Assembly (NCBI RefSeq): GCF_900456975.1
Contig: NZ_UGYM01000002.1
Span: 2,232,001 to 2,296,000 of the forward strand
Direction: 5' to 3'
DNA: 64,000 bases
From: Shewanella baltica
Lineage (GTDB): Bacteria > Pseudomonadota > Gammaproteobacteria > Enterobacterales > Shewanellaceae
Shown piece by piece: positions 28,028-63,787 of this stretch. The notes beneath the pieces are model-generated. The model did no database searches and was not told the DNA's origin. It saw only the letters and a list, made by a program, of their open reading frames with translations. Each line of letters starts with the position of its first letter. Within the stretch, counting starts at the first letter, position 1. A program made the translations under genes and the position numbers.

Positions 28028-28435
28028 TTAGCTCAAGACTAAGCTATAACGGAAGGAGGTTTTGGTAAACCCTATGCTTTCATAGTATTGCTGAGTGGTG
28101 ATGCGCTGGGTCGATGTGGTGAGTTCGAGTAACTGACAATTCTCTTGTCTTCCGCGCGCTTTAGCAAAATCAATGAGCTGAGTGCCTATGCCCTGACCCC
28201 GCATGTCGGCATTCACCACAATCGCCGTTATACGACAGATACGACTCAAGGCGGGGAAATAATCAAAGAACATCAAGGCCATCACAGCGACAACTTGCGG
28301 CTCACCCTGTGCATCGGGTTGCTCACATACTAATAGCTCATCACTTCGGGACTGGGGGTTATCTTGGTACTCTGTTAATGTCTGGGCTAACGCGGCGACA
28401 TGCAAAGCATAACCTAGCTGGCTAAATTTGCCCAA
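28028..28435 (-). pseudogene. GNAT acetyltransferase, 5' end removed by the Tn3-type transposon
   Basis: The body reads as a GNAT N-acetyltransferase: QLGYALHVAALAQ near the start, then VMALMFFDYFPALSRICRI, the acetyl-CoA loop MRGQGIGTQLIDFAKARG, and the end YYESIGFTKTSFRY. The family normally has about 18-20 residues (first strand and start codon) before QLGY. Here the codon for that Gln spans the outer edge of the transposon's inverted repeat. The only start left is TTG inside the repeat (28435). No matching 5' piece is seen on the other side of the transposon. It is probably inactive, unless the TTG is used. Confidence 0.82.
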
Positions 28436-28458
28436 CGCGCCAAAAATGTAAAGTTAGC
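28419..28458 (+). repeat. Left terminal inverted repeat of the Tn3-type transposon
   Basis: TGGCTAAATTTGCCCAACGC continuing to AAAATGTAAAGTTAGC. It matches the complement of 34403-34442 at 39 of 40 positions. The inner end AAAGTTAGC resembles the GTTAAG inner ends of other Tn3 repeats. Confidence 0.95.
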
Positions 28459-28467
28459 AAAACTACG

Positions 28468-29943
28468 CTACAATCCTCTTTGCTCACAGATAGGATCAGA
28501 AGCAAACCATTCTAGAAAATCATCTAAACTTGAATTTATTTCGATAGATTTTTTCATAGGATCATTCAATCGTGTCAGTACATTAGGCGTATGTAAAAGC
28601 TCTTCTTTATGTTCGCTAAGTTCGATAGCACGTAAGCAAAGTGCTTGGTATGGTTTAAATGCTTCATAGTCGAAAAAGTTATGAACAGCTCGCGCATAGG
28701 ATTTTTGTCTTCTACCCAACTTAGTTGAAAGATCATACCCAAGGATTAACATAATTTTTTCGAGCACACTTAAGCTCATATTTTTGTGGAAACCAAAGTA
28801 TAAATGGCTTAATTTTAATGCAAATTGTTCCCAACGCTTATATGAACTAGGCATGTCTGATGAGTAATATCGAATGATAGTTAGCACAGTGCTTTTTACT
28901 TGCAGTACACGTCGATAATAGTCTTCTTTAAACACAGAATGCAGCCAATCAGCATCGCTGCTCATATCGAGAGTTGGCCAGCATATCTTGGCAGCAACTA
29001 AAAATTGGCTCCAATCGCGGTATTCTTGGTTTTTGAAATGATCAATATTTGCTAAAACTCTTAACTTCCCTTGTTCAACCAAATCAGCTTTTAGTGCACG
29101 ATCTAAAGCGTAAAAGTCCCTATAAAAAGTTTCACCATCGTGATGGGTGAGTTGGTCATAGGTAACACTATATTGGCACCAATCATAATAAATCTTTTTA
29201 CCAGCTAAGCTGGGCTCCCACACTTTCGTTAATATCGTAAGCTGCTTGTTTTCGACTGATTCGGAAGCTAAAAATTTATTGAAAATGAACCAGTTCCCTC
29301 GGTTACAAAAGGCAATATCCTTCTGGACTTGTTTTACCGCAATTCTTTCTTTATCAAAAAAATCAAGGATCTGATCTTCATTCTCGGCACTTAGCCAAAT
29401 CAATGGCCATTCTTTTTCCTGATAGAAATGCTGTCGGTCAAGGATGACTTTTGGGGATTCACTACGAAGTTGGATTTCAAACGCAACATCTTTACCGAAA
29501 TAACGAGCATGGAGGTCGGGTTTTGCACGTTTGAGCTTGTCTAGGCTAAAAACAAACTGCGTATCGACATCAATCACTTCCCAATTGGGGAGGTTAATAA
29601 GCGTCTTAGCGAGTAGCTCTTTCATTTGCCAATGCTTATTTCCCTCACTTACTCCAGCGTAAATTTCCGCACGAGATTTACTATCAGATTTCCAATCGCA
29701 ATCAATCCCTTCTGGATGACTAAAGTAATATTGATGCCCGTGCCGACTATCGTCATCTCGTTTTGCATGAAGATACACCAGTTGTTTACAGTTTTGACAG
29801 ACGAAACGATGGTGTTTTATGTTGGCTTGACGTATTTCTTGTAGTTCATGCTGTTCATAGATCCAACTTAATGATTCAACCCAAATGGACTCATTACGCT
29901 CGGTATCTATAACAATAGGGATTTGGCGCTTAGTATTTTCCAT
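28468..29943 (-). CDS. CoiA-like protein with zinc finger and nuclease-like motif (transposon passenger)
   Basis: About 491 residues from ATG 29943 (MENTKRQIP). A zinc-finger-like part has Cys49-x2-Cys52, later His76 and Cys82 (FVCQNCKQLVYLH, YYFSHPEGIDCDW). The helix GNKHWQMKELLA and the segment KPDLHARYFGKDVAFEIQLR follow. Asp143 and Glu156-x-Gln158 give a PD-(D/E)xK-like core of the CoiA family (Glu-x-Gln instead of Glu-x-Lys). The last 300 residues are helical and unrecognised. CoiA proteins are known from competence, but relatives with this finger-plus-nuclease layout are scattered on mobile DNA; a defence role is inference. An in-frame ATG at 29964 touching the resolvase stop is an alternative start. 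Confidence 0.75.
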   Translation of the reverse strand: MENTKRQIPIVIDTERNESIWVESLSWIYEQHELQEIRQANIKHHRFVCQNCKQLVYLHAKRDDDSRHGHQYYFSHPEGIDCDWKSDSKSRAEIYAGVSEGNKHWQMKELLAKTLINLPNWEVIDVDTQFVFSLDKLKRAKPDLHARYFGKDVAFEIQLRSESPKVILDRQHFYQEKEWPLIWLSAENEDQILDFFDKERIAVKQVQKDIAFCNRGNWFIFNKFLASESVENKQLTILTKVWEPSLAGKKIYYDWCQYSVTYDQLTHHDGETFYRDFYALDRALKADLVEQGKLRVLANIDHFKNQEYRDWSQFLVAAKICWPTLDMSSDADWLHSVFKEDYYRRVLQVKSTVLTIIRYYSSDMPSSYKRWEQFALKLSHLYFGFHKNMSLSVLEKIMLILGYDLSTKLGRRQKSYARAVHNFFDYEAFKPYQALCLRAIELSEHKEELLHTPNVLTRLNDPMKKSIEINSSLDDFLEWFASDPICEQRGL

Positions 29944-29964
29944 AATCTCGCAGCTCTTTAACAT

Positions 29965-30543
29965 CTATCGAGTAGGGGAAACAATTGATTGTTTAACTGA
30001 ATTTATAGCCCGATAAATAGAAGCTTCTCCAAGGTGATACTCCTTGGCAAGCTGACCAATAGTGGCCCCCTCAGCTCTTTTATCATAAATCGCTTGTTTT
30101 AAGGTGTCTGTAAGTTTTACAGGCCTACCAAATTTAACTCCATTTTCATGGGCCTTTGCGATACCTTCGGCCTGTCTCTCTGTCCGCAAGTCATTTTCAA
30201 ACTCAGCAATAGCTGCCAACATATTGAACATGAGTCTCCCAGTCGAAGTGCTCGTATCGATGTTCTGATCGATAACGAGCAAATCAATACCTTCACTTTG
30301 AAAACGCGAAGCAATCTGGGCTAAGTGGACGACTGAGCGAGCAAGACGATCGAGTCGGGTTACCACTAGGGTATCCCCTTCACGTAAATAACTCATGCAA
30401 GATTGAAATTCAGACCGTTCAGCCGTCCTCCCACTGCGTTTTTCTTGATATATCTTATTGCACTCAGCTCGATGTAACTTGCCCAGTTGCACTTCTAAGC
30501 TTTGACCCGTGGAACTCACTCGAGCATAACCAACTTTGGACAT
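29965..30543 (-). CDS. tnpR: Tn3-type serine resolvase TnpR
   Basis: Site-specific recombinase that resolves cointegrates during replicative transposition. The catalytic serine is in VGYARVSSTGQSLEVQ (residue 10 or 11), with LVVTRLDRLARSV and AEFENDLRTERQAEG following. The C-terminal helix-turn-helix runs IGQLAKEYHLGEASIYRAI. Length is 192 residues. It is divergent from the antitoxin gene across the res-like region. The nuclease-like passenger follows directly downstream, so the two may be co-transcribed. Confidence 0.96.
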   Translation of the reverse strand: MSKVGYARVSSTGQSLEVQLGKLHRAECNKIYQEKRSGRTAERSEFQSCMSYLREGDTLVVTRLDRLARSVVHLAQIASRFQSEGIDLLVIDQNIDTSTSTGRLMFNMLAAIAEFENDLRTERQAEGIAKAHENGVKFGRPVKLTDTLKQAIYDKRAEGATIGQLAKEYHLGEASIYRAINSVKQSIVSPTR

Positions 30544-30712
30544 AAATTACCATATCTCTTTAAAGGTTTTGATAATGCACTTATGATAGTAGTTTTGATA
30601 GGCAATAACCAGAGCTGTCAAATAGTATACATTTTGATAAGGTGCATTTTTGACTTTTATCGCCCAACTGGTGTAAATTGAGCGAATCGAACGATTCGTT
30701 TAAAGGTGATAA
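30544..30712. promoter_or_regulatory. Probable res recombination site and divergent promoter region
   Basis: Between tnpR and the antitoxin. TTTTGATAATGCAC (30567), TTTTGATAG (30593) and ATTTTGATAAGGTGCA (30631) are spaced repeats, with TGTCAAA (30616) as an inverted copy of the core. Repeated 12-mer half-sites of this kind are what a three-subsite res region looks like. The exact subsite borders cannot be set by eye. Confidence 0.65.
30683..30698. promoter_or_regulatory. Perfect palindrome before the antitoxin gene (candidate autoregulatory operator)
   Basis: CGAATCG-AA-CGATTCG, 15 bases before the antitoxin start and overlapping where its promoter or leader should be. Phd/YefM antitoxins bind palindromes of this sort. 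Confidence 0.6.
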
Positions 30713-30973
30713 ATGAACACTCTTTCAGCCAATGAAGCAAAAATTCACTTTGGAGATTTGTTGCTCAAAGCCCAACAAGCTCCAATCCAAATTAATAAAA
30801 ATGGCAAGCCTGTGGCCGTTGTTATTTCAGCTGATGCATACCAAAGTATCGAGACACTAAAATTACATTTGCTTCAATCCAAAGCGGTGAAAGCCATGAC
30901 TGACATCAAAATGGGCAATTTGGTTGATGGTAATACCTTTTTTGATGAGCTGGCTGCAGGGCAGTATGACTAA
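30713..30973 (+). CDS. Phd/YefM-family antitoxin
   Basis: An 86-residue antitoxin: the N-terminal dimerising, DNA-binding Phd fold reads MNTLSANEAKIHFGDLLLKA, with PIQINKNGKPVAVVISADAY typical of the family. The acidic C-terminus would wrap the toxin. The start follows AAAGGTGAT. Its stop overlaps the toxin start (TAATG), so translation is coupled. It lies between res and tnpA inside the transposon, where the pair may stabilise the element. Confidence 0.93.
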   Translation: MNTLSANEAKIHFGDLLLKAQQAPIQINKNGKPVAVVISADAYQSIETLKLHLLQSKAVKAMTDIKMGNLVDGNTFFDELAAGQYD

Positions 30974-31284
30974 TGGCAGTAACTTATCATTTAACACCTG
31001 ATGCACAGTCTGATCTGATAGGCATTCACCGCTTTACGTTAGCCCAATGGGGGGCTACTCAGTCAAAGACCTATTTATCCGGACTTAAACAAACGATTCA
31101 GCTGCTGGCTGAAACACCCACCCTTGGGAAAAATAGACCCGAGGTACGCATGAATGTGTTTAGTTTTCCTTATTCAAGTCACGTCATCTATTACATCCAA
31201 CATGAGCATCAATTCGTTGTATTTGGGATCTTACATAAAAGTATGGTTCCACTTACTCATCTCGCGGAGCGGGAAACAATCTGA
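30973..31284 (+). CDS. ParE/RelE-family toxin
   Basis: A 103-residue toxin with the compact RelE/ParE fold: YHLTPDAQSDLIGIHRFTLA, LLAETPTLGKNRPEVR and FPYSSHVIYYIQ, then VVFGILHKSMVP. The sequence resembles ParE (gyrase poisons) more than ribosome-dependent RelE, but target assignment is inference. It ends 23 bases before tnpA. Confidence 0.92.
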   Translation: MAVTYHLTPDAQSDLIGIHRFTLAQWGATQSKTYLSGLKQTIQLLAETPTLGKNRPEVRMNVFSFPYSSHVIYYIQHEHQFVVFGILHKSMVPLTHLAERETI

Positions 31285-31307
31285 TGTAGTGAAATAAGAG
31301 GTTATCC

Positions 31308-34300
31308 ATGAAAAATGACGCTCGGCGGCTATCTATTTTGTCAACCGATGAAATAGATGAACTGTTTGGATTACCTCATTTCTCAGATGATGACCGTCGA
31401 TTATATTTTGACTTAAGTGCTAAAGAGCGCGAGCTATTCGACAATACCCGAACGTTTTCTGTGGCAGCCCATTTAGTATTGCAATTGGGCTATTTCAAAG
31501 CCAAACGGCAGTTTTTCAGTTATGAACAAGAATCATCAGTATTGAATGACTTGGATTATATTACCGCGCTGTACTTTCCCACCAAAACGCTTTCAAGACT
31601 GAAAAGTCCCTCGAGACCGATTAGGGCTGAACAACAACGAGCAATTCTTGATTTATTCCAGTATAAACAATGTGATAGTGAGGTAAAAGTTGATTTGGAA
31701 GATAAAGCACAGCGGGTTGCGATGTTATCGACACAACCTATCTTTATCTTTCGTGAATTAACCCAATACTTAGCACTACACCGTATTGTCATGCCCAGTT
31801 ATCGGTATATGCAAGAGATGATTGGTAGAGTGGTGGCTTATGAACGCACCCGTATTGCTCGATTACTTAGCACTTGCATGACTTCACTTATCGATCAGCA
31901 ATTGGCGGCTTTGCTTCGGGCAGAGTCTGGATTGTTTCGCGTCAGCGCATTAAAACATGAAGCTAAAGATTTCAGTTATAAAGAATTGCGACATGAAGTC
32001 GCACGGCGGCAGTTTTTCCAGCCTCTACATGAGTTTGCCAAGCAGTTCCTCATAACAGCGAGGATCTCCAATGAAAGCGGCAAGTATTATGCTTCTATGG
32101 TTAAGTTTTATACCACTTATAAACTTCAACGCATGAAAAATGAGACTGCTCAGTTATATCTGCTGTTTTTTGCTTTTCATCGGTTTCAGCAAATTAATGA
32201 CAACTTAATTGAAGCATTGCTCCATTGGGTCGATCAATATGAGAAACAGGCCAAGCGTGCCGCTGAAGAAGCAATGAATAATGCAGTTACCAATGCAGCG
32301 AAAAATTTACAAGCCGCGGGTCATGTATTGAGCCTGTTTACGGATGACACCATCACCGATGACACACCTTTTTCCGTTATTAAAGAAAGAGCCTATGCAT
32401 TGCTTGAACAAGAGAGATTCCCATTAGTTGCTGATTACTTACGCAATATTGCTTTCGACAAAACGGCATTTGAATGGTCACATTACACAAAATTATCAGC
32501 CACATTCAAACGTAACTTAAGGCAACTTTTTACTGATCTGGATTTTGCTGGACGTGTAGAAGACTCTCCTTTGCTTGAAGCTATCGCGTTTTTACAAAAC
32601 TTGTTGCGCACAGAAAAATCACCAAGGCAAACTGACCCTAGTGCATTTCCGACTGAGATTATTCCTAAAGGTTTACGCCGATATTTGTTTATTAAAGAGG
32701 GTAAAACATTTAAAACGCTAGATGTAGATCGCTATGAGTTTTTGGTCTATCGCCTACTACGCAACTCACTGGAAGCGGGTGATGTGTACGTTAAACATAG
32801 TAATGAATTTCGCCGCTTTGAAGATGACTTAATAAGCGATCTTAGATGGCAGGATAAAGAACGAGTATTGCAAGATATTGGTGCACCCATTTTATTGGCC
32901 CCTATCCAAGATACTCTGGCTGTATTTCATACTATGCTAGCAGCACGTTATAGTGCGATTAACCAACATATTTCTGATGGGGTCAACAAACATATTAAAG
33001 TGATTGGAGCTGCCGAAAAACGTCGTTGGAAGCTGCTTTATCCGAGCAGTGATGAATCCGTTAATAGCGATTTTTACAGCCAGTTACCAGGAATTGGCAT
33101 TGCGGATCTGCTGTGGTTCGTTGCGGGTAATACTGGATTTTTGAATGCATTTACCCATGTATTAGATCGTTATGTAAAGCATGAAGCTGATCCTCGTGAA
33201 ATTTTCGCCTGTATTGTTGCGATGGGAACAAACATGGGGTTAGCAAAAATGGCTGAAGTTTCAGGTCTTAGCTCAGCATCAATGGCGGGAACGTCTAGAA
33301 ATTATCTACGCTTGGAGACGTTGCGAGCGGCTAATGATGCGATTAGTAATGCAACCAGCCAGCTACCCGCATTTCATCTCTATGATATTCAGGACACACT
33401 TCATTCAAGTAGCGATGGCCAGCGGATGGAAACGCAAATTAACACCCTTAACGCTCGATATTCTCCTAAGTATTTTGGTTTACAGAAAGGTGTCAGCGCC
33501 TACACGTTGGTTGCAAATCATGTTCCTATAAATGCAAAGATTATTGGGACTCACGAACATGAAAGCCATTACGTTTTCGATTTATTGCATAACAATACCT
33601 CTGATATAAAACCAGAACGGCATTCCACTGACACCCATGGCACCAATCAGGTTAATTTTTGGATTTTGCATGCATTTGGATATCATTTTGCACCTCGTTA
33701 TCGTGATTTGCATAAGAAAATGGATACGTTAGTCGGCTCACAACATCCCAATGAGTGTGGTGACTGGCTAATAAAGCCTGCACGAAAAACCAACGATGAA
33801 TTGATTGAACGTGAATGGCCCAATATTCAACGTATCATGGCATCGCTAGCTCAAAAAGATGTTACTCAAGCCACTATTGTTCGCAAACTCACGAGCTATT
33901 CGCGTCAGAATCAGACCAAGAAAGCATTATGGGAGTTGGAAAATATATGCCGAACGCTATACATTCTCGACTTTGTCGACGATGTTGGCTTACGTCAATG
34001 TGTACAAAAAGCATTAAATCGTGGTGAAGCCTATCACCGTCTCAGGCGAGCTGTTGCATTTGTTAACGGTGGAAAATTCAGAGTAAAAACGGAAGAGGAG
34101 CAACAAATTTGGAATGAATGCTCTCGGCTCATCACCAACGCGGTCATTTACTACAACACAGTGCTGCTATCTCGTGTCTATGAACAGAAGCAAACAGTAG
34201 GAGATCAAAACGCACTGGCTCAGCTTCACAGTATTTCGCCCGTTGCATGGCAGCACATCAATATGTATGGCAATTTTGAGTTTAGTCCATCAACCTCAAA

Positions 34301-34394
34301 AATAGATATCGATGCATTGGTTGCTCGATATGCTGAACCAGAATATTGGCAACAAGCGTTGACGGAGAACGAGGATTCAAGTGAGAAATTTTAG
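31308..34394 (+). CDS. tnpA: Tn3-family transposase TnpA
   Basis: A DDE transposase of 1028 residues, slightly longer than Tn3 TnpA, that joins transposon ends to target DNA replicatively. The N-terminal DUF4158-type DNA-binding region starts RRLSILSTDEIDELFGLP. The catalytic core shows Asp about 703 in SSDGQRM, Asp about 775 in STDTHGTN and Glu about 937 in WNECSRLI, followed by NAVIYYN. No stop or frameshift is seen. The start follows AAGAGGTTATCC. The gene ends just inside the right inverted repeat. Confidence 0.97.
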   Translation: MKNDARRLSILSTDEIDELFGLPHFSDDDRRLYFDLSAKERELFDNTRTFSVAAHLVLQLGYFKAKRQFFSYEQESSVLNDLDYITALYFPTKTLSRLKSPSRPIRAEQQRAILDLFQYKQCDSEVKVDLEDKAQRVAMLSTQPIFIFRELTQYLALHRIVMPSYRYMQEMIGRVVAYERTRIARLLSTCMTSLIDQQLAALLRAESGLFRVSALKHEAKDFSYKELRHEVARRQFFQPLHEFAKQFLITARISNESGKYYASMVKFYTTYKLQRMKNETAQLYLLFFAFHRFQQINDNLIEALLHWVDQYEKQAKRAAEEAMNNAVTNAAKNLQAAGHVLSLFTDDTITDDTPFSVIKERAYALLEQERFPLVADYLRNIAFDKTAFEWSHYTKLSATFKRNLRQLFTDLDFAGRVEDSPLLEAIAFLQNLLRTEKSPRQTDPSAFPTEIIPKGLRRYLFIKEGKTFKTLDVDRYEFLVYRLLRNSLEAGDVYVKHSNEFRRFEDDLISDLRWQDKERVLQDIGAPILLAPIQDTLAVFHTMLAARYSAINQHISDGVNKHIKVIGAAEKRRWKLLYPSSDESVNSDFYSQLPGIGIADLLWFVAGNTGFLNAFTHVLDRYVKHEADPREIFACIVAMGTNMGLAKMAEVSGLSSASMAGTSRNYLRLETLRAANDAISNATSQLPAFHLYDIQDTLHSSSDGQRMETQINTLNARYSPKYFGLQKGVSAYTLVANHVPINAKIIGTHEHESHYVFDLLHNNTSDIKPERHSTDTHGTNQVNFWILHAFGYHFAPRYRDLHKKMDTLVGSQHPNECGDWLIKPARKTNDELIEREWPNIQRIMASLAQKDVTQATIVRKLTSYSRQNQTKKALWELENICRTLYILDFVDDVGLRQCVQKALNRGEAYHRLRRAVAFVNGGKFRVKTEEEQQIWNECSRLITNAVIYYNTVLLSRVYEQKQTVGDQNALAQLHSISPVAWQHINMYGNFEFSPSTSKIDIDALVARYAEPEYWQQALTENEDSSEKF

Positions 34395-34402
34395 AGCTTA
34401 AA

Positions 34403-34442
34403 GCTAACTTTACATTTTTGGCGCGTTGGGCAAGTTTAGCCA
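34403..34442 (-). repeat. Right terminal inverted repeat of the Tn3-type transposon
   Basis: GCTAACTTTACATTTTTGGC continuing to GCAAGTTTAGCCA, nine bases past the tnpA stop. There is one mismatch to the left repeat (C against T in the AAAYTTG step). Confidence 0.95.
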
Positions 34443-35249: not shown

Positions 35250-36935
35250 TCAACTGGCACAACAGGACAGCTGTTTGATATCACAGTTGAAGGTTTGCGC
35301 ACACAGCTTAAGCCCTTCTACCATGGTCAGATACGGAAACAACTGCTCAGCGATGTCAGTTATCGTCATGCGGTTACGGATGGCGAGTGCCGCACTCTGG
35401 ATGATTTCACCGCCTTCATGGGCGAGGATCTGCGCACCAAGTAAACGCCCTGTTTCTTTTTCGGCCACCAGTTTAATAAAGCCAGCGGTTTCAAAGTTAG
35501 CCAGTGCTCTTGGTACGTTTTCCATTTGCAGTACCCTGCTGTCGGTTTTCATGTTTTGTGCTTTAGCCTGGTCCTCAGTCAATCCAACGGTCGCCACCTG
35601 TGGATCGGTAAAAATGACTGTTGGCATGGTGGTCAGATCCAAACGGGCATCTCCGCCAGTCATGTTAATTCCCGTCCGGCTACCAGCAGCGGCGGCCACA
35701 TAGACAAATTGCGGCATATTGGCGCAGTCTCCGGCTGCATAAATACCTGCAATATTGGTTTCCATCTTGTCATTGACGACTATCGCGCCATTTTTATCCG
35801 TTTCCACACCAACGGCGGCTAAATTCAGCTGCGTGATATTGGCGTTACGACCGGTGCTGATCAGCAATCGATCCGCCTTTAAGCTGCCGTCCCCTGTTTT
35901 CCACGACTGGGTTTGCAGGGTAAATTGCTTACCATCGTGTGACACCCTGCTCGCCTGAGTGTAATTAAGTACGCGAATACTTTCTTTTTCAAAACACTCA
36001 TTCAGCTTTTCGCCGAGTAGCGGCTCTTCCCTATATAACAAGGTACGGCGGGCCAATACGGTAACGTCGCTGCCCAGACGTCGATACGCCTGAGCAATCT
36101 CCAGCGCGATAACCGATGAACCAATCACAATCAGATGTTCAGGTAAGTCTTCGGCAAAGAGTGCCGTGGTAGATGTCCAATATGGCGTATCGGCAAGGCC
36201 ATCTATTGGTGGAATGGTCGGCGTAGAGCCGCTGGCAATCAGAATTTTGTCGGCGTGAACAGACTGTTGCTCGCCGTTGTTATCGGTCACGATCAGGGTG
36301 TTTGCGTCTTTGAATCTGGCCCAGCCCTTCATCAGTGTTAATACCGGATTGGTGTCCAGAATATGCTGATATTTGGCTGCGCGCAGTTCTTCTACCCGCA
36401 CCGTTTGCTGCTGCGCCAGTAGTTCTCGGCTGAGCACAGGCGCGTGGTTTTCCAGTCCGGCAAAGGGATTGTGGCGCTGCTGCTGGGCAAGCTGCGCGGC
36501 GCGGATCAAGATTTTTGACGGTACACACCCCACATTGACACAGCAGCCGCCAACGACATCGGCTCCCTCAATGATGGTGACTCTGGCACCGCGTTCGGCG
36601 GCCTTAATGGCACAAGCAAAGGCGGCAGAACCGCTGCCAATAATCACGACATGCAATTGTTCCGATTTTTCGCTATTAGGGATGGCCGTTTCATTACCAC
36701 AATCTGGTGCAACTATTTTGGCACTATAGCCGAGAACCTCAATGGCATTATTAACTTCGTCACTATTTTCAGTATCAGTTTCTATTTCAATAGTGGCACT
36801 AGCCAGCTCATAGGAAACGGTGGCCTTGCTGACGCCGTTTATGGAAGTCAGAGCATCTTGGATATGATTCGCACAGCTTGCGCAGCTCATGCCATTAATG
36901 GAGAGATTAACCTCTTTGATTAAGTTTATTGCCAT
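35250..36935 (-). CDS. merA: Mercuric reductase
   Basis: FAD/NADPH enzyme that reduces Hg(II) to volatile Hg(0) in the cytoplasm. The 561 residues start with a heavy-metal-associated domain (GMSCASCANHIQDAL, Cys17 and Cys20). The pyridine-nucleotide disulfide reductase core follows: FAD site VIIGSGSAAFACAIKAAERG and redox-active pair CVNVGCVPSK. The C-terminal vicinal cysteines that hand Hg(II) to the active site are in KQLSCCAS. It lies last in merR-merT-merP-merA, four bases after merP. Confidence 0.97.
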   Translation of the reverse strand: MAINLIKEVNLSINGMSCASCANHIQDALTSINGVSKATVSYELASATIEIETDTENSDEVNNAIEVLGYSAKIVAPDCGNETAIPNSEKSEQLHVVIIGSGSAAFACAIKAAERGARVTIIEGADVVGGCCVNVGCVPSKILIRAAQLAQQQRHNPFAGLENHAPVLSRELLAQQQTVRVEELRAAKYQHILDTNPVLTLMKGWARFKDANTLIVTDNNGEQQSVHADKILIASGSTPTIPPIDGLADTPYWTSTTALFAEDLPEHLIVIGSSVIALEIAQAYRRLGSDVTVLARRTLLYREEPLLGEKLNECFEKESIRVLNYTQASRVSHDGKQFTLQTQSWKTGDGSLKADRLLISTGRNANITQLNLAAVGVETDKNGAIVVNDKMETNIAGIYAAGDCANMPQFVYVAAAAGSRTGINMTGGDARLDLTTMPTVIFTDPQVATVGLTEDQAKAQNMKTDSRVLQMENVPRALANFETAGFIKLVAEKETGRLLGAQILAHEGGEIIQSAALAIRNRMTITDIAEQLFPYLTMVEGLKLCAQTFNCDIKQLSCCAS

Positions 36936-36939
36936 AGTC

Positions 36940-37215
36940 TTACTCCTTGATTATAGAGGGATAACCAGCATTGGTGGTCGCTTGAACCAATGCGGCGGCA
37001 TGGGTTTTATCATCGTCAAAGTTCACTACAGCTTCTTTCTGCTCATAACTCACCTCGACACTAGACACGCCATCCACCCTAGAAAGCGCTTTTTTGACAG
37101 TGATTGGGCACATGGCGCAGTTCATAGTGGGCAGGTCCAGAGTGATGGATTGAGGTTTTGCTAATAGAGTAGGACTCATCGTTAGCAGCATAAATAACAG
37201 GGCTATTATTTTCAT
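36940..37215 (-). CDS. merP: Periplasmic mercury-binding protein MerP
   Basis: Small periplasmic Hg(II) scavenger that passes mercury to MerT. The 91 residues begin with a signal peptide (MKIIALLFMLLTMSPTLLAK) and contain the metal motif TMNCAMCPITVKKAL. The start at 37215 is preceded by GGAG, and it places the signal peptide first. The longer open frame upstream reads through merT in another frame and is not used. Confidence 0.96.
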   Translation of the reverse strand: MKIIALLFMLLTMSPTLLAKPQSITLDLPTMNCAMCPITVKKALSRVDGVSSVEVSYEQKEAVVNFDDDKTHAAALVQATTNAGYPSIIKE

Positions 37216-37247
37216 AGGAAATTCTCCGTTAGTAGGTATTGACACGA

Positions 37248-37595
37248 TCAAGCGACTAAAGGGATCCAGACACTGCTGGTGACGAGGAATAGAGCGATTA
37301 ATGCTATGAGCCAGAAAATCAGCTGGCGACGTTTGCGTACAGATGGGATGGCGCAAGCCGTGCCTGGTTCGCAGACGGTTGTGGGGCGATAGAGCTTCCA
37401 GCCCGCCCAACCGAATAACACCAATACAGCGATGATGAACAACGGGCGATAGGGTTCGAGTCGAGTCAGGTTGCCAATCCAGGCACCACCGATCCCCAGT
37501 GTCAACAGGAGAAAGGGGCCGACGCAACATAGACTGGCACCTATGGCGGCGGCAATACCGCCGAACAAGGGTAGGTTATGATCATTCTTCTGCAT
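37248..37595 (-). CDS. merT: Mercuric transport protein MerT
   Basis: Inner-membrane Hg(II) importer of 115 residues with three hydrophobic segments. The first-helix cysteine pair GASLCCVGPFLL and the cytoplasmic pair VCEPGTACAIP are both present, as in classic MerT. It is the first structural gene after the mer operator. Confidence 0.96.
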   Translation of the reverse strand: MQKNDHNLPLFGGIAAAIGASLCCVGPFLLLTLGIGGAWIGNLTRLEPYRPLFIIAVLVLFGWAGWKLYRPTTVCEPGTACAIPSVRKRRQLIFWLIALIALFLVTSSVWIPLVA

Positions 37596-37628
37596 CGTTG
37601 ACTCCAGATAATCTACTTCAGTGGAGTC

Positions 37629-37660
37629 AGTTTAATTGCCGTACTAGAGTACGGAGTCAA
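37629..37660 (-). promoter_or_regulatory. MerR-controlled promoter/operator of merTPA
   Basis: On the minus strand TTGACTCCGTAC-TCTA-GTACGG gives a -35 (TTGACT) running into the classic mer dyad, followed by TTAAAC as -10 at the long 19-base spacing that MerR needs. It lies between merR and merT. Confidence 0.93.
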
Positions 37661-37666
37661 GTGATG

Positions 37667-38068
37667 TTAGCGATCTTTTTTATTTTCTGGCAACAGGGAC
37701 TCGATAATAGGGCAATGGGCTTGGCCAGCGTTGGCGGCGCATTGATTCAATAAATCGTCAAGGGCAGACTCTAAGCGAAATAAGTCATTAATTTTGCAGC
37801 GCACATTCGTCAGCTTATTTTTTGCCAATTCCTGTACTTGGTCGCAATGTTCATCACCCAAGGACAAGAGGTTTGCAATTTCTTCCAAAGTGAATCCTAA
37901 TTCTTTGGATCGCTTGATAAACGTGATCAGCTTTAAGCTAGCTTCTGGGTAGCGGCGATAACCCACGCTTGGCTTGTTAGGTTGCTCGATCAGACCACGC
38001 CGCTCGTAATAGCGAACGGTCTCAACACTGACGCCTGCCGATTTGGCAAATTGACTGATTGAATACAT
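37667..38068 (-). CDS. merR: Mercury-responsive regulator MerR
   Basis: A 133-residue MerR-type activator. The N-terminal winged helix is FAKSAGVSVETVRYYERRGL. Three Hg-binding cysteines are present: Cys in DEHCDQ (about 79) and the pair in QCAANAGQAHCPI (about 114 and 123). Unusually for a Gram-negative-type operon, merR is on the same strand as merTPA and upstream of the operator, rather than divergent. The operator begins a few bases past its stop codon. Confidence 0.96.
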   Translation of the reverse strand: MYSISQFAKSAGVSVETVRYYERRGLIEQPNKPSVGYRRYPEASLKLITFIKRSKELGFTLEEIANLLSLGDEHCDQVQELAKNKLTNVRCKINDLFRLESALDDLLNQCAANAGQAHCPIIESLLPENKKDR

Positions 38069-46125: not shown

Positions 46126-46755
46126 ATGTTTATTCGGGCCTACCTGCGCGCATCAACAGATGAACAAGATGCCAATCGAGCCAGAAATGAGTTGGTTCAG
46201 TTTTCAGAAAGTAAAAATGTTCGCATAGCCAGTTTTTATACTGAGACGCAATCAGGGGCGAAAATTGAACGGCCTGAGCTTGGGCGCTTAATCATGGACT
46301 CTCACCCTGGCGATGTTTTACTCATAGAAAAAGTCGATAGATTGTCTCGCCTCCCCTTCGAGCAATGGAAGGTCCTAAAAAGTAAATTGGTAAACGCCAA
46401 TATTCATATTGTGGTCGTTGACCAGCCAATGACACATGGGATCTTAAGTGGCACAGAAGAACATACCATGATCGCAAAGGTACTGACTGAGTTCATGATT
46501 GATTTAGCCGCGGCCATGGCCAGAGATGATTACGAGACAAGAAGAAAGCGACAAGCACAAGGCATCGAAAAGGCCAAAACCTTAGGCAAATACCTTGGGC
46601 GTCAGCCTAACCATGGATTGAGGCAAAATATTCGGTTACTACTCGATGAAGGGAAAAGCTGGTCACAAGTGCAGAGTCTGCTTAAATGCAGTCGTTCTAC
46701 CATTGCCAAGGCAGCTAAATTGAATGAGCTAAAAACCGATGAATCAATTCTCTAA
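46126..46755 (+). CDS. Serine recombinase of the resolvase/invertase class
   Basis: A 209-residue small serine recombinase, distinct from the Tn3 resolvase at 29965. The catalytic Ser is in AYLRASTDEQDANRA, with LLIEKVDRLSRLPFEQW and the long helix FMIDLAAAMARDDYETRRKR following. The C-terminal helix-turn-helix is WSQVQSLLKCSRSTIAKAA. It has no transposase neighbour. Palindrome copies 2 and 3 lie on either side, and copy 4 just beyond, so they are candidate recombination or crossover sites. Confidence 0.93.
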   Translation: MFIRAYLRASTDEQDANRARNELVQFSESKNVRIASFYTETQSGAKIERPELGRLIMDSHPGDVLLIEKVDRLSRLPFEQWKVLKSKLVNANIHIVVVDQPMTHGILSGTEEHTMIAKVLTEFMIDLAAAMARDDYETRRKRQAQGIEKAKTLGKYLGRQPNHGLRQNIRLLLDEGKSWSQVQSLLKCSRSTIAKAAKLNELKTDESIL

Positions 46756-46961: not shown

Positions 46962-47816
46962 TTAGCGAAGTAATAACAAGGGAACATGACTTTTACTGAT
47001 CATCCTAGTGGTATTGCTCCCGACAAAAAACTCCCTAATCCGCGAGTGCCCATAGGCCCCCATCACCATAAGATCAATTTGATGTTCAGCTTGATAGCTT
47101 GCGAGTGCCGCTTGCACCTCTCCTTGGCAAACAGCGGTAATTACATTAAAGTTTGCTCCATGAAGAGCATCTGCAACTAATCCTAATTCAGCCGTAGCCA
47201 GTGTTTGATTGTCTGACACCATGACAACATGACACTCAAGTCCTCTTAGTAACGGACTACTGGCAACGCAATTTAGCGCGGTTTTAGCCGTTGGACTGCC
47301 ATCATAGGCGATCATAAATCGCTTTGGCGTTTGAAATTCAGCCATCACCACTAAAATAGGTTGTTTCAGCGTGCGAATGACACTTTCAAGGTGGCTGCCA
47401 ATAGCCTGTGCTTGATCTTGATGTTGTTCACCTTGACGCCCCATCACAACCAATCTGGCTTTACACTCTTGCTCTAACAAAGTTTCAACCAAGTCGCCAT
47501 GGCGCTGCAAGGTTTCAATCTCAATTGCTGGTGCGGAATCAATAAGACGAGTTCGCGCATCTTGCAACAGATATTTGCCCTGCTCAAGCGCCAATTTACT
47601 TCGACGAGCCTCAAGTTCTACCATCTCATTAAGCAAGTGTTCTCGCGTACCTAGGCCAATATTTCCCGACAGATTTGATTCTGTTGGATAAGTTGATTTA
47701 TCCAATACATGCAATAATGTCACTGGCGCATCAAGTTGATTTGCAGCCCAGCGACTAGCATCACATACGGCAAGTGTCGCTTTTGAACCGTCAATACAGG
47801 CAATCACATTTGTCAT
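46962..47816 (-). CDS. Tandem universal stress protein (UspA family)
   Basis: 284 residues with two Usp domains. The first begins VIACIDGSKATLAVCDASRW and carries LVVMGRQGEQ. The second begins RFMIAYDGSPTAKTALNC and ends with the nucleotide-binding loop LMVMGAYGHSRIREFFVGSNT. It lies 33 bases downstream of the SulP transporter on the same strand; SulP-Usp pairs are common and hint at stress-linked regulation of anion uptake. Confidence 0.95.
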   Translation of the reverse strand: MTNVIACIDGSKATLAVCDASRWAANQLDAPVTLLHVLDKSTYPTESNLSGNIGLGTREHLLNEMVELEARRSKLALEQGKYLLQDARTRLIDSAPAIEIETLQRHGDLVETLLEQECKARLVVMGRQGEQHQDQAQAIGSHLESVIRTLKQPILVVMAEFQTPKRFMIAYDGSPTAKTALNCVASSPLLRGLECHVVMVSDNQTLATAELGLVADALHGANFNVITAVCQGEVQAALASYQAEHQIDLMVMGAYGHSRIREFFVGSNTTRMISKSHVPLLLLR

Positions 47817-47849
47817 CGTTATTTTCCTTTTTACTGTGTTGCTAGAGAA

Positions 47850-49340
47850 TTAGTGACCAGACATCATTTTTTCGATTTCTTCTGGCTTATCATGCACCCC
47901 AAATTTATCGACTATGGTGGCACTGGCTTCATTTAGGCCAATCAACTCGACCTCAGTCCCCTCACGGCGGAATTTAATCACTACCTTGTCGAGGGCCGAT
48001 ACCGCGGTAATATCCCAAAAATGCGCTTGAGATAAGTCGATAGTCACTTTATCAACCACTTCCCTAAAATCGAATGAATTACTGAACTTATCTGCCGAGG
48101 CAAAAAAGACTTGCCCAATAACCTGATAATGGCGACCAGTGTCGGCAGCCGTCGTTGCACTCTTAACCACCATAAAACGGCCCACTTTATTAGCAAAGAA
48201 CAGAGATGCGAGTAACACCCCTACAAATACCCCCATTGCTAAGTTATGAGTAGCGACCACCACAGCAACGGTCGCCACCATCACAAGATTGGTCGACATT
48301 GGGTGATGCTTAAGGTTACGTATGGAATCCCAAGAGAAAGTACCGATAGACACCATGATCATCACGGCAACCAGTGCCGCCATAGGAATAAGCTTTAACC
48401 ACTCACCTAAAAACACCACCATCACAAGTAAAAAAACACCCGCAGCGAAAGCTGATAAACGTCCTCTGCCACCCGATTTAATGTTGATGATTGACTGACC
48501 AATCATGGCACAACCTGCCATACCGCCCATTAACCCCGCGCCGATATTGGCAATACCTTGGCCCTTACACTCGCGGTTCTTATCGCTTTGGGTATCGGTT
48601 AAGTCATCGACTATGGTGGCGGTCATCATAGATTCCAGCAAACCCACCACGGCAAGGCCGGCCGAGTATGGGAAGATGATCACCAGAGTTTCAAGGGTCA
48701 ATGGTACTTCAGGCCAGAGGAAAATAGGCAAAGTATCAGGCAGTTGTCCCATGTCGCCGACAGTACGAATATCTAACCCCATATAAACCGCAAACAGCGT
48801 TAATCCGACAATACACACGAGAGGCGAAGGTAAGGATTTACCAATCACAGGGATGAGTGGGAATAAGTAGATAATGCCAAGACCTGCAATCGTCATCGCA
48901 TATACGTGCCAAGTCACATTGGTCAGCTCGGGCAACTGGGCCATAAAGATCAGAATCGCCAGCGCATTCACAAAGCCTGTCACCACAGAGCGGGAGACGA
49001 AACGCATCAAGCTACCGAGTTTTAAGTAACCCGCAGCAATTTGCAGTACACCGGTTAATAGGGTCGCCGCAAGTAAATACTCGAGGCCGTGTTCCTTCAC
49101 TAAGGTCACCATCAACAGCGCCATAGCACCCGTTGCGGCAGAGATCATGCCAGGACGACCACCTGTAAACGCGATAACCACAGCGATACAGAATGAAGCA
49201 TACAGGCCGACCTTAGGATCGACACCTGCAATAATAGAAAAGGCAATAGCCTCAGGGATTAACGCCAGCGCTACTACAATACCGGCTAACAGATCTCCAC
49301 GTATATTGGAGAACCACTCTTTTTTCATGGTTTGTATCAT
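47850..49340 (-). CDS. SulP-family anion transporter with STAS domain
   Basis: About 496 residues: ten or more hydrophobic segments and a C-terminal STAS domain ([20 protein letters not shown]). The SulP signature region includes [20 protein letters not shown], and [20 protein letters not shown] in the middle. Substrates in this family include sulfate, bicarbonate and other anions. With a Usp partner, bicarbonate or sulfate is plausible, but the sequence does not settle it. Starts at 49349 (GTG), 49340 (ATG) and 49328 (ATG) are possible; AGAG spacing favours 49340. Confidence 0.92.
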
Positions 49341-49349
49341 GTTACTCAC

Positions 49350-57214: not shown

Positions 57215-57562
57215 TCAACTATTTCTCGGACAAAGCGAGCTGAGTTTGCACCAGATTATATTCACTTATGATAAAAAAGTAATGAAAAACTCGAACAGAC
57301 AAAAGGTTTCAATATGCAGGTATGTCAATAAGCATCGGTTTATTGGCGAATAGCGATTCGTATAGAAATATCAATTTGTCGTGCATTTAGCTCTACTTTT
57401 TTATCATGATGTAAAGGAATAGAAGTATAGATACCTAGACGCCTATATGCCCAAATGATCTAGTATTCTTGTTTGATATATCAAATAGTTATTAATTCGT
57501 TATCCATTACCTTATAAAGGCATAGAATCCGATTCAAATCATGCGTTGAATTGGAGTCATTG

Positions 57563-58567
57563 ATGGAACAATTACCGATATTGAATTTAAGCGATTGGCA
57601 TGCGGGTGGGCAAAGTCGTCACGCCTTCATTACTAAACTTGCCGATGCAGCTAGAAGGATAGGTTTTTTCTATTTAACTGGCCATGGCATTGAGCTTGCT
57701 AGACAGCAGCAAGTACTTCAGTTAGCGGCTGATTTCTTTGCGCTGCCCGTCGAAGATAAACTTGCGGTGAAAATGGCTAATACACCGCATTTTCGTGGTT
57801 ATACCCGTTTGCAAGGTGAATTAACCTTAGGGAAACCGGATTTGCGGGAACAGTTTGATATCATGCAAGAAGAAGTGGCTAACCCTCAGCAGTCAGATGT
57901 GCCTATATGGTGGCAGCTACAGGGACCTAATCAATGGCCGTCACAATTACCACAGATGAAATCGACTTTATTGGCATGGCAACAGGATTTAGCGGATATC
58001 AGTGTCACTCTTTTGAAAGCTTTTGCTGTTGCGCTAGAGCAACCTGAAAGCGCCTTTGATGCCACGATTGAAGCGGGTCCTTATCAGCATATGAAGCTTA
58101 TTCGCTATCCCAGCGCGGATGGACAGACTTCAGGCCAAGGCGTAGGGGCACATAAAGATCCTGGCTATTTGACCTTAGTGCTGCAAGATAAGCAATCCGG
58201 TTTAGAGGTTCAGACTGACAACGGTTGGTTAAGCATACCGCCATTAGAAGATGCCTTTGTGGTGAATATAGGTGAATTACTTGAGTTGGCTTCTAATGGG
58301 TATTTAAAGGCAACCAACCATAGGGTGACGAGCCCGCCTGCTGGGGTCGAGCGCTACTCGTGCGCCTTTTTTATGGCGGCGCAGTTGAATGCGACAGTCC
58401 CTTTGTTACCTTTGCCAAAGCATCTGGCGAACCAAGCTCAAGGACCGGCAAGCGATCCATTAAATCCACTCTTCCACCAAGTGGGCCAGAACGTATTAAA
58501 AGGACGTTTACGCTCTCATCCCGACGTTGCTCAAGCGCATTACGCCTCATTCGCTCATGCCATTTAA
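57563..58567 (+). CDS. 2-oxoglutarate/Fe(II)-dependent oxygenase (isopenicillin N synthase-like)
   Basis: About 334 residues. The DIOX_N part covers residues 1-100, with GFFYLTGHGIELARQQQVLQ. The double-stranded beta-helix follows: iron ligands His and Asp in GAHKDPGYLTLVLQD, His in KATNHRVTSPP, and the Arg before YSCAFF, binding 2-oxoglutarate. The ATG at 57563 has GGAG upstream. It is 18 bases before the PLP enzyme gene, so the two form an operon, suggesting oxidation of a sulfur amino acid or related compound. Confidence 0.9.
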   Translation: MEQLPILNLSDWHAGGQSRHAFITKLADAARRIGFFYLTGHGIELARQQQVLQLAADFFALPVEDKLAVKMANTPHFRGYTRLQGELTLGKPDLREQFDIMQEEVANPQQSDVPIWWQLQGPNQWPSQLPQMKSTLLAWQQDLADISVTLLKAFAVALEQPESAFDATIEAGPYQHMKLIRYPSADGQTSGQGVGAHKDPGYLTLVLQDKQSGLEVQTDNGWLSIPPLEDAFVVNIGELLELASNGYLKATNHRVTSPPAGVERYSCAFFMAAQLNATVPLLPLPKHLANQAQGPASDPLNPLFHQVGQNVLKGRLRSHPDVAQAHYASFAHAI

Positions 58568-58585
58568 TGGTTATTAGGATCTATT

Positions 58586-59746
58586 ATGCAATTTAAAACT
58601 AAAGTACTTCACACTCATTATGCAGCTGATAACTCGACGGGCGCGCTTACAACACCTATCTATCAAAGTAGCACCTTCGCCTACGGTAGTGCCGAGGATG
58701 GTCGAGCCCGTTTTGCAGGTGAGCAACCGGGCTTTATCTACAGTCGCATGGCGAATCCGACAGTGCAGGCGCTTGAATATCAATTAGCACAACTGGAAGG
58801 GGCTGATGAAGCACTCGTCGTTGCGAGTGGGATGGCGGCAATCAGCAGTATTTTCTATGCCTTAGCGAGTCAGGGTGATGAAATCGCATTTATCGACCCC
58901 GTATACGGTGGCACTGCGGCATTTTTAATCCAAACATTAACCCGCGCGGGTATTACTGTGCGCCGTTATCAAGACGATGATCATTTATTGGCAGAGATTA
59001 CCGCCGAAACAAAAATTATTTTATTTGAGCCCATCACCAATCCGACCTTAAAAGTCAGTGACTACCGTAAGGTTAAGCTTGCCGCTGAAAAAGTGGGCGC
59101 TATAACCATTTGTGATAATACTTTTTTAACGCCGTATTTATTCAAACCGCTGGAACATGGCATAGATATCGTGATGCACAGTGCCACTAAGTATTTAAGT
59201 GGCCATGGTGATTTAATCGCAGGTGTTGTCGCTGGACCTAAGGCATTAATGCAACCTATTCGCACTATAGCGCTTAAACATATCGGCGCTGCGATTGGGC
59301 CACAGGAAGCCTATTTATTACAGCGAGGCTTACGTACCTTAGCACTTAGAATGGATGCTCATCTTGCGGGCGCGGCTAAGGTCGCCGCTTTTCTTGCAAC
59401 CCATCCGAGCGTTGCAAAAGTTTATTACCCAGGGCTAGCAGATGATCAAGGTCATCAAGTTCTGAGTGAAACCATCAACGCCTTTGGCGGTATGGTGAGT
59501 ATTGAGCTCGAAGGCGGTTTTAATCGAGCGGCGCAGTTTTTAGATCATTTGAACTTGTTTACTCAAGCGGTCAGTTTAGGTGACTTAGAAAGCCTTGCCT
59601 GTCACCCAGCCAGCACCACCCATGCCGCTATGGATGCCGCGAGTCGGCTAGCTTCAGGGGTGAATGACAACCTGATTAGATTGAGCATTGGTGTGGAAGA
59701 TCCTCAAGATTTGATTGCCGATCTTGAGCAAGCCTTAGTGTTTTAA
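58586..59746 (+). CDS. PLP-dependent trans-sulfuration enzyme (methionine gamma-lyase/cystathionine synthase-like)
   Basis: 386 residues of the Cys/Met metabolism PLP family. The PLP lysine is in MHSATKYLSGHGDLIAG near residue 203. Also seen are GFIYSRMANPTVQALE (active-site Tyr and Arg) and ICDNTFLTPYL (Asp holding the PLP nitrogen). A methionine gamma-lyase would usually have Cys in the loop that here reads VYGGTAAFL, so exact specificity is open: gamma-lyase, cystathionine gamma-synthase or O-acylhomoserine sulfhydrylase. Downstream of the oxygenase and next to a sulfate importer. Confidence 0.9.
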   Translation: MQFKTKVLHTHYAADNSTGALTTPIYQSSTFAYGSAEDGRARFAGEQPGFIYSRMANPTVQALEYQLAQLEGADEALVVASGMAAISSIFYALASQGDEIAFIDPVYGGTAAFLIQTLTRAGITVRRYQDDDHLLAEITAETKIILFEPITNPTLKVSDYRKVKLAAEKVGAITICDNTFLTPYLFKPLEHGIDIVMHSATKYLSGHGDLIAGVVAGPKALMQPIRTIALKHIGAAIGPQEAYLLQRGLRTLALRMDAHLAGAAKVAAFLATHPSVAKVYYPGLADDQGHQVLSETINAFGGMVSIELEGGFNRAAQFLDHLNLFTQAVSLGDLESLACHPASTTHAAMDAASRLASGVNDNLIRLSIGVEDPQDLIADLEQALVF

Positions 59747-59792
59747 GGTAGTGCACTAATAGGATACAACGCTCAATACATGAACAACTTCA

Positions 59793-59823
59793 GTTGAACA
59801 CTTAAAAAGTGTTCAACTTTTTA
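59793..59823. terminator. Bidirectional terminator
   Basis: GTTGAACACTT-AAAA-AGTGTTCAAC-TTTTT, between the convergent PLP-enzyme and cysA genes. Confidence 0.9.
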
Positions 59824-59843
59824 ATCGCATCCAGTATTACCCG

Positions 59844-60908
59844 TTAAATACCTTCCCCTAAAAAGACTTTGGTATAGCGCGGCTGGATCCAAGCGCTATC
59901 ACCTTTGTTTATGCCAAGCTGTTTAAATTGCACTTTAGATAATTCAACATGGATCAGTTGGTTATCTAGCTCAGTTAGGACTTCTAATCTCACTGCTGGG
60001 CCAACGATGGTCACTAAGTCTAAACTGACTTTAAGGGCATTTTCAGTTGGCTGTGTCAGTACCTCGATTTCGTGTGGGCGCACATAGGCTAAGCCTTGTT
60101 GCTCTTCGCTAATAGTGTGCTCTGGTGAGGAAATGTGGATATTGCCTATAGTGCTATGCCCTTGTTTTACCCGGGCATGAAATAGGTTCACATTGCCAAG
60201 AAACTCGTACACAAAAGGATTGCTTGGATTGTCATAGACTTCTTCTGGCGTACCTTGCTGCTCGATACGACCTTGATTCATCACCACGATTTTGTCTGCA
60301 ACTTCGAGTGCTTCTTCCTGATCATGGGTCACAAATACGGTAGTGACATTAATCTCATCGTGTAAGCGTCTTAACCAGCGGCGTAATTCTGCGCGGACTT
60401 TAGCATCGAGTGCGCCAAAGGGTTCGTCTAACAGCAATACCTTAGGTTCGACCGCAAGTGCGCGGGCGAGAGCGATACGTTGTCTTTGTCCGCCAGAGAG
60501 TTGCGATGGGTAGCGATTGGCGGTCCAATCTAATTGGACGAGTTTGAGTAATGAATGCACCTTATCGGCAATGTCTGCCTTACTCGGGCGTGTCTTTCGT
60601 GGTCTGACTGTGAGTCCATAGGCGACATTTTCGAATACAGTCATATGTTTAAATAGGGCGTAATGTTGGAATACAAAACCGACACCGCGTTCACTCACAT
60701 GCTGAGTGGTGATGTCTTCGCCATTAAATCTGACTATGCCACTGTCGGCCTGTTCGAGTCCTGCAATAATCCTGAGTAAGGTCGTTTTGCCAGAGCCCGA
60801 TGGGCCTAAAAGGGCCGTCAGCTCTCCGGTTTTGATCTCTAAATTGACTGAGTCTACAGCGATAAAATCACTAAAACGCTTATTAACTTGCTGAATGTGT
60901 ATGCTCAT
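59844..60908 (-). CDS. cysA: Sulfate/thiosulfate ABC transporter ATP-binding protein CysA
   Basis: Energises sulfate/thiosulfate import. 354 residues: Walker [15 protein letters not shown]-loop [12 protein letters not shown], signature [17 protein letters not shown], Walker [15 protein letters not shown], switch His [10 protein letters not shown]. The C-terminal TOBE-type part continues from about residue 240. It is the last gene of the cysP-cysT-cysW-cysA unit, 27 bases after cysW. Confidence 0.97.
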
Positions 60909-60935
60909 AATGGGCGATTCCTATGGACGTTGCGT

Positions 60936-61787: not shown

Positions 61788-61791
61788 AGAC

Positions 61792-62616: not shown

Positions 62617-62684
62617 ATCATTATTCCGTCGCGAGATAAGTGAAACCAATGGGCAGTTTCGTATTAATGAAACCGCATAAAAGA

Positions 62685-63698: not shown

Positions 63699-63787
63699 AC
63701 CGAAATCCTCATATTATTTAATAAGGCTTCCGGTGGACCGGTCAGCGATGTGGTCTAACTGTGTTGATTGTGTGGTAAATTTCGTTT

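Follow-up and report, generated by a model that had tools for sequence, protein, structure and literature searches.

A Tn3-family transposon of Shewanella baltica with a DUF6035 passenger, a probable nuclease related to CoiA

The transposon and its boundaries

We analyzed a stretch of 64,000 nucleotides of the Shewanella baltica genome (assembly GCF_900456975.1, contig NZ_UGYM01000002.1, positions 2,232,001 to 2,296,000), hereafter the window, which contains a transposon encoding a transposase, a resolvase, a toxin-antitoxin (TA) pair, and a passenger protein of the DUF6035 family. An earlier note, made from the sequence alone, had described it as a Tn3-family transposon with a CoiA-like nuclease passenger. 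Coordinates are positions in the window unless prefixed with G000:C2 (the contig of its own genome), and G- and L-numbers are labels of the compared genome and plasmid/genome records. The features of the locus are the following:

28415..28419, no strand: left partner of the 5-bp target duplication TAGCT; the right partner lies directly after a second copy of the transposon (copy 2), at G000:C2:2317487-2317491, beyond the window (two relatives have the empty site)
28420..28458, + strand: left inverted repeat (IRL), 39 bp (repeat comparison)
28468..29943, - strand: DUF6035 passenger, 491 aa, with CoiA-like finger, PD-(D/E)xK-like core, and a C-terminal half without family assignment (Pfam, alignments)
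29965..30543, - strand: tnpR, serine resolvase, 192 aa (Pfam)
30544..30712, no strand: intergenic region resembling a resolution site (res), with the palindrome 30618-30637 (inferred from partner changes)
30713..30973, + strand: Phd/YefM-type antitoxin (Pfam)
30973..31284, + strand: ParE-type toxin (Pfam)
31308..34394, + strand: tnpA, Tn3-family transposase, 1028 aa (Pfam, NCBIfam)
34403..34441, - strand: right inverted repeat (IRR), 39 bp (repeat comparison)
28028..28419, - strand: chromosomal gene for a GNAT acetyltransferase, interrupted close to its 5' end by a 57-kb block (Pfam, empty-site comparison)

The assignment to the Tn3 family stands. The product of tnpA has the size of the ~1000-aa DDE transposases of this family and matches DDE_Tnp_Tn3 (PF01526, E 1.2e-139) as well as the NCBIfam model NF033527 (765.8 bits, cut-off 500 bits). 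The Pfam matches of the other backbone genes are to Resolvase for tnpR (E 1.2e-42), Phd for the antitoxin (E 5.9e-14), and ParE for the toxin (E 3.9e-16). Sequence comparison places the element in the TnSpu1/TnAbapMCR4.3 type of Tn3-family transposons. The TA pair, which had been listed as the element's own, is indeed present but is not peculiar to it: it is the usual pair of the transposition module of this known Tn3 type, according to excerpts of PMC7157771.

The ends had been given as 40 bp with one mismatch. Repeat comparison does find inverted ends of 40 nt, 98% complementary (28419-28458 and 34403-34442), but the outermost base lies outside the element. The copies of the OS195 plasmid and of L002, a related element carrying a SulP transporter, begin at GGC, and copy 2 differs from the window copy at the outermost position. 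Given this difference and the clear 5-bp duplications of these relatives, we set the start at 28420 and not at 28419. The refined unit spans 28420-34441 (6022 bp) and has 39-bp ends, identical at 38 of 39 positions. Just outside GGC...GCC, the OS195 plasmid copy is flanked by the duplication ATAAT and the L002 copy by AACTT, so that both the terminal inverted repeats of 38-40 bp and the 5-bp duplication of the Tn3 family are found. The window copy alone has no target duplication of its own; TAGCT surrounds a block of two copies.

The res-like region between tnpR and the TA pair holds a palindrome at 30618-30637. The tnpR-side stretch shared with other elements ends at 30637 in six of the listed plasmid records (in one of which no tnpA was seen beside the tnpR match), the shared TA-side stretch begins at 30620 in one, and the other listed records break elsewhere. 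Because the partner changes between 30620 and 30637 in some related elements, the palindrome is probably the crossover core of res.

The passenger protein

The passenger gene follows tnpR on the same strand, as had been noted, with 21 nt between the tnpR stop and its ATG, and is the sole large open reading frame (ORF) between tnpR and IRL. The frame reads 28468-29964; the likely start at 29943 matches the ATG of the OS195 homologue (P0001) and gives a protein of 491 aa. The protein belongs to DUF6035 (PF19500; 50.2 bits, cut-off 22.6). In the 491-aa numbering it has Cys49-x2-Cys52, His76, Cys82, Asp143, and Glu156-x-Gln158; the core residues are exactly as the earlier note had read them.

Its relation to CoiA was assessed with profiles. 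All 25 sequences of a close alignment (A1, the window protein and 24 homologues) matched CoiA_nuc at E<=0.1, with a best value of 2e-7. We compared A1 by hhalign with a CoiA alignment (A4) built from 38 of 115 sequences, i.e., the small CoiA-family gene of OS195 used as query and its 114 matches. The result was an E of 6e-4 over 113 columns covering finger and core. The finger, the D ... E-x-Q core, and the R/Y/W pattern that follows the core occur in the same order in DUF6035 and CoiA. Among five other DUF6035 proteins scanned, three passed the CoiA cut-off, e.g., that of Pontibacter with 32.3 bits. As far as these profiles go, the DUF6035 passenger is related to, but not classed as, CoiA.

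We examined residue conservation across 19 plasmid- and genome-encoded DUF6035 proteins, mostly of Proteobacteria, with Pontibacter from Bacteroidota, and including the window and OS117 proteins. The near-identical copies of OS195, PS-2, and S. glacialipiscicola had been excluded beforehand, together with a short piece (G076), a broken match (G705), and G363, which shares genus and frame length with G317. C49, C52, H76, C82, P142, D143, E156, R170, Y174, and W183 are identical in 19/19 proteins, position 127 is D or E in 19/19, and Q158 is found in 18/19. The first four are candidate metal ligands, and the remainder contains the acid ... D ... E-x-K/Q pattern of PD-(D/E)xK nucleases. The C-terminal half of the window protein has no family assignment in Pfam; DUF7829 passes its cut-off in this half of one relative, from Rhizobium Kim5. 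Sequence searches of the PDB returned no relatives of the passenger and none of CoiA. The passenger is most likely a zinc-finger and PD-(D/E)xK nuclease related to CoiA, and we infer its nuclease fold and DNA cleavage from profiles and conserved residues.

An exchangeable passenger slot

The region from tnpR to the TA pair is ~94-98% identical to the listed long plasmid matches. A search with the whole element gave 280 records, the best 20 of which were ~97% identical, and 18 of these 20 had a SulP or sulfate transporter under the match; the other two were OS195, with DUF6035, and a record without annotation. We checked in L002, L003, and L084 that the SulP gene lies between tnpR and the left end. 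The same position holds mcr-4.3 in pAb-MCR4.3 and, by the same comparison, the DUF6035 gene in the window.

The junctions of these arms can be located. Two parts are common to the window element and the SulP type, namely the end of IRL and the whole sequence starting with element position 1516. The second part runs through tnpR into the DUF6035 leader, the ATG, and the first codons, and a run of 36 bases covering the tnpR end, leader, start codon, and first codons is common to both. A single-base difference makes tnpR 192 aa long in the window element and 206 aa in the SulP type. These alignments place exchanges of passenger arms at the tnpR/IRL junctions in this lineage. Arms have probably also been exchanged at res, where breakpoints are seen here and where exchange has been described for other Tn3 members (PMC7157771, in excerpt). 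In the simplest reading of the SulP junction, a SulP cassette replaced most of the DUF6035 gene in an ancestor carrying that gene, although the order is not proven. The shared 36-base run favors this replacement, and the direction stays undecided if the OS117 copy of the gene derives from the transposon. We had considered that copy as a clean donor; this was weakened by a 25-mer resembling the inverted repeat (4 mismatches) that follows the gene, which may thus be a decayed transposon copy.

Other sequences related to the slot were observed. Genes for a SulP transporter (46962-49349) and a universal stress protein (46126-46755), 86% identical to the passenger pair of a related transposon, adjoin a resolvase-like gene (by ORF reading) elsewhere in the 57-kb block, and may be left over from another passenger arm or be its origin. 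In OS195, tnpA and the right end are separated by a tetratricopeptide-repeat gene (L001:13087-13962), which in Shewanella LC6 (L078:9383-10258) directly follows tnpA. It is absent from the window copy, and its position is perhaps a second passenger slot. Finally, ~117-132 bp of tnpR 3' sequence, 90-93% identical, occur on plasmids of Lelliottia, Enterobacter, E. coli, and Hafnia, mostly of 11-14 kb, and may represent a miniature element from this lineage.

Distribution and selection of DUF6035

DUF6035 has a sparse distribution. With the window's own genome included, it was found at E<=0.001 in 4 of 99 relatives, in 5 of 369 genomes at class level (4 of them above the cut-off), and in 6 of 398 at phylum level (5 above it); the close-family profile matched 5 of 394 genomes of the order at E<=1e-10. 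The search for the same passenger in other Tn3 elements, proposed in the earlier note, returned several copies, but within the collections searched they were confined to one Tn3 lineage. The same tnpR precedes the gene in both copies of the window genome and in OS195, Shewanella PS-2, and S. glacialipiscicola. The gene is full length in the first three and, by reading, interrupted by an apparent IS3-type insertion sequence in the last. Gene fragments occupy the slot on plasmids of A. salmonicida and MR-1. The expectation that homologues would lie on mobile DNA was borne out by plasmids and by an integrative element. On the OS117 plasmid, a 93.5% identical gene is accompanied by neither tnpR nor tnpA and has Abi and super-infection exclusion genes as neighbors, and the homologue of G397 adjoins a tyrosine integrase near guaA, in an integrative element by ORF reading.

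Five passenger copies, one of them only 750 nt long, gave ratios of nonsynonymous to synonymous substitution rates (dN/dS) of 0.11-0.25 in each of their 10 pairings, which points to purifying selection on the passenger. The passenger had no match in 50,697 phage records. In viral contigs, none was confirmed with a single-protein query, an alignment gave one distant match (25% identity), and the transposon end had no exact match.

Genomic neighborhoods, proposed function, and alternatives

We give about even chances to the reading that this Tn3 unit carries, as a swappable passenger, a probable nuclease against mobile genetic elements (MGE). The defense role is suggested by the neighbors of relatives and by purifying selection. 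The DUF6035 nuclease would cut the foreign DNA of phages or rival plasmids, and this would pay for the transposon's keep. Its gene would probably be co-transcribed with tnpR from the res region, as the 21-nt gap suggests.

The question whether homologues lie beside defense genes, raised by the earlier note, received different answers in plasmids and genomes. We viewed 12 of 21 plasmid records and, after leaving out three with gene fragments only, counted 9. Defense-named neighbors occurred at 6/9 of these DUF6035 loci and in 1/9 control stretches, where the sole match was a type I restriction-modification subunit at the edge of a stretch. The controls were 14 kb long and lay at a distance of roughly half a record, and their TA and Fic genes and lone helicases or ATPases did not count as defense. 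The neighbors in question are ABC-3C and TrlF; Abi and SieB; AbiJ with an AAA ATPase and UvrD (twice); SIR2; and AbiEii. Two more loci had SbcCD, counted as repair, and the Variovorax locus had none. In genomes, where 20 hand-chosen neighbors at 11 loci were considered, the two strong cases are L057, with GajB (1.9e-220) directly upstream of DUF6035, and L058, with SIR2 (9.6e-265) one gene away. The association of DUF6035 with defense genes is frequent but far from universal.

Some further observations concern these neighborhoods. In L057 (3743-9132), a large ORF, the UvrD-type GajB, and DUF6035 follow each other on one strand in an operon-like fashion, which makes DUF6035 a candidate Gabija add-on in some hosts. 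Close to its DUF6035 transposon, but not part of it, OS195 has a further, small CoiA-family gene (L001 14515-15147), in the region with ABC-3C and TrlF. We also scanned the neighborhoods with PADLOC, restricting near ORFs from 178 to 113 and control ORFs from 135 to 101 by distance; loci G076, G768, and G363 had no control stretch. The counts (242 models in 113 ORFs at 12 loci, 46 models in 101 ORFs at 9 controls) are redundant and refer to models, not genes, and do not serve as a test here. When the 113 near ORFs were scanned with Pfam, they showed a BsuBI/PstI restriction enzyme and a HerA-type helicase, and also conjugation and ordinary metabolic genes.

Several points weigh against an anti-MGE nuclease. 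The plasmid product names were read by eye and not blind, over 15-20 kb near the gene against 14 kb in the controls; two of the six defense-neighbored loci (Agrobacterium and Rhizobium Kim5) share neighbors, the OS195 neighborhood is the landing site of the transposon, and SbcCD at two loci could mean DNA repair. Genome loci had strong defense matches at only 2/11, weaker ones at 3/11 (reverse transcriptase, RmrA-like, and mads-like), and none at 6/11, and genome control stretches also held defense genes, e.g., ThsB and HmaC. No PADLOC model of a described anti-phage system matched the window passenger at E<=1. We found no promoter or terminator signal above chance, and hence none that would back the suggested control of the passenger by the tnpR promoter. 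Lastly, the window protein scores 17.8 bits against the CoiA family (PF06054), below the cut-off of 20.3, and the hhalign probability is only 29%. The earlier call of a CoiA-like nuclease is supported as far as a CoiA-related, nuclease-like passenger goes.

These last two values are also what speaks for the nuclease call being wrong, with the conserved residues belonging to another metal-binding or structural domain. We hold this to be very unlikely, given the CoiA_nuc matches throughout A1 and the ordered alignment of finger, core, and R/Y/W pattern with CoiA. If the fold is right, the passenger might instead process DNA as CoiA does, for uptake, conjugation, or recombination, handling incoming single strands and favoring establishment of the element. 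The CoiA_nuc relation fits this role, and so do the SbcCD neighbors, which lie on two Sphingomonadales plasmids (one with a WYL-domain gene), and the presence of the gene on conjugative plasmids and, in the integrative element, close to an integrase. Against it, Abi, SIR2, UvrD/AAA (Gabija-like), or ABC-3C genes are the commoner named neighbors; none of the plasmid loci viewed has an annotated competence gene next to DUF6035, save the small CoiA-family gene outside the OS195 transposon; and the long C-terminal half is absent from the A4 CoiA proteins. We regard it as rather unlikely.

The position of the gene, probably in the tnpR operon and alone between tnpR and IRL, would also suit an accessory of transposition, e.g., one that cuts cointegrates or competing copies. 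This appears very doubtful: among the best 20 of 280 records the SulP transporter stands in place of DUF6035 in 18, another element has mcr-4.3, and the close OS117 homologue does without either transposition gene. A neutral hitch-hiker, trapped by chance and drifting, would explain the damaged copies in S. glacialipiscicola, MR-1, and A. salmonicida. The dN/dS values already disfavor it, full-length copies persist in the window genome (two), OS195, and PS-2, and we assign it little probability. To return to the anti-MGE nuclease, a broader version is that DUF6035 is a widespread undescribed class of such enzymes, here made when res is free of resolvase, upon arrival or transposition, as a self-timed weapon against resident or rival DNA; we consider this version unlikely.

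DUF6035 has almost no literature: among open-licence PubMed Central papers it is mentioned by one, in passing, and we found there no description of its function or of a DUF6035 Tn3 passenger. If the swappable slot does hold a DNA-targeting nuclease, as is probable, a common transposon lineage also moves defense-type genes, and DUF6035 is a candidate family for direct phage tests.

The two-copy block

The earlier note had missed that the window copy is one end of a larger block and lacks its own duplication. Copy 2, at G000:C2:2311464-2317486, is inverted, lies 45 kb away, and differs by one base in 6022. The two copies bound a block of 57,067 bp. TAGCT precedes copy 1 and follows copy 2, and when joined, the flanks form one GNAT frame. 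A search for the empty site over 60 genomes, own included, found G029 (87%) and G002 (81%) matching the joined site with no gap across the junction; one other genome had only a 30-base match and 56 had none. Given the shared TAGCT and the empty site, the block most likely entered the chromosome as a single unit, and the two inverted copies would have brought it in by using both IRL ends.

Inside the block, a lone left-type transposon end lies at G000:C2:2297157-2297220 (65157-65220 in the window frame). This end and the inner end of copy 2 (2311464) enclose 14.2 kb of DNA bordered by AATTT at either end. The ParA/ParB part of this stretch is 97.7-98.1% identical to six S. baltica plasmids, and the stretch resembles what is left of a plasmid into which the transposon had inserted. 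The region 57500-63700, whose genes read as an oxygenase, a Met/Cys lyase, and a sulfate ABC transporter, shares 96-97% identity with G002, and its longest plasmid match has 172 bases; its first 2248 bases have a second copy elsewhere in the genome (86% identical). It probably came from a close relative of G002. A mercury-resistance-like set (MerA-, MerP-, MerT-, and MerR-like by ORF reading) adjoins the transposon at 35250-38068, inside the block.

Comparison with known systems

TnSpu1 (CP017991.1) and TnAbapMCR4.3 (CP033872) belong to the Tn3000 subgroup of Tn3, an assignment published for these relatives of the window element (Lima-Mendez et al. 2020, PMC7157771). According to the same excerpts, they have the gene order <tnpR, antitoxin>, toxin>, tnpA>, with ParE and Phd/YefM, and differ in their passengers. 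TnSpu1, compared through its published description in excerpt, has the same gene order and TA pair as the window element. So has TnAbapMCR4.3, whose tnpR-TA region (NZ_CP033872) is 96.4% identical; it carries mcr-4.3, whereas the window element carries DUF6035. In the related MR-1 copy, the C-terminus of tnpR differs from that of the window after the residues NSVK. ISSod9/TnSod9 was at first considered as the backbone. This Shewanella Tn3 element, which lies on the MR-1 megaplasmid and likewise has a TA pair, belongs to the Tn21 subgroup (PMC7157771 and PMC13367494, in excerpt), and it was rejected since its TA pair is HEPN/MNT (PMC7157771) and that of the window element Phd/ParE.

CoiA (PF06054/PF25164) and the passenger share a Cys/His finger followed by a D ... 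E-x-Q ... R ... Y ... W core. The CoiA proteins of A4 have 210-343 aa, whereas the passenger has ~490 aa, an additional C-terminal half, and its own Pfam family. A CoiA-domain protein is among the anti-phage systems validated in E. coli (Vassallo et al. 2022, PMC9519451, in excerpt). It has a CoiA-type domain in common with the passenger, to which it is likened by description only, and so makes a defense role plausible without being a test of homology. The passengers of Tn3 elements named in the excerpts of PMC7157771 are mainly resistance, metal, virulence, and catabolic genes. The backbone of the transposon described here is already known.

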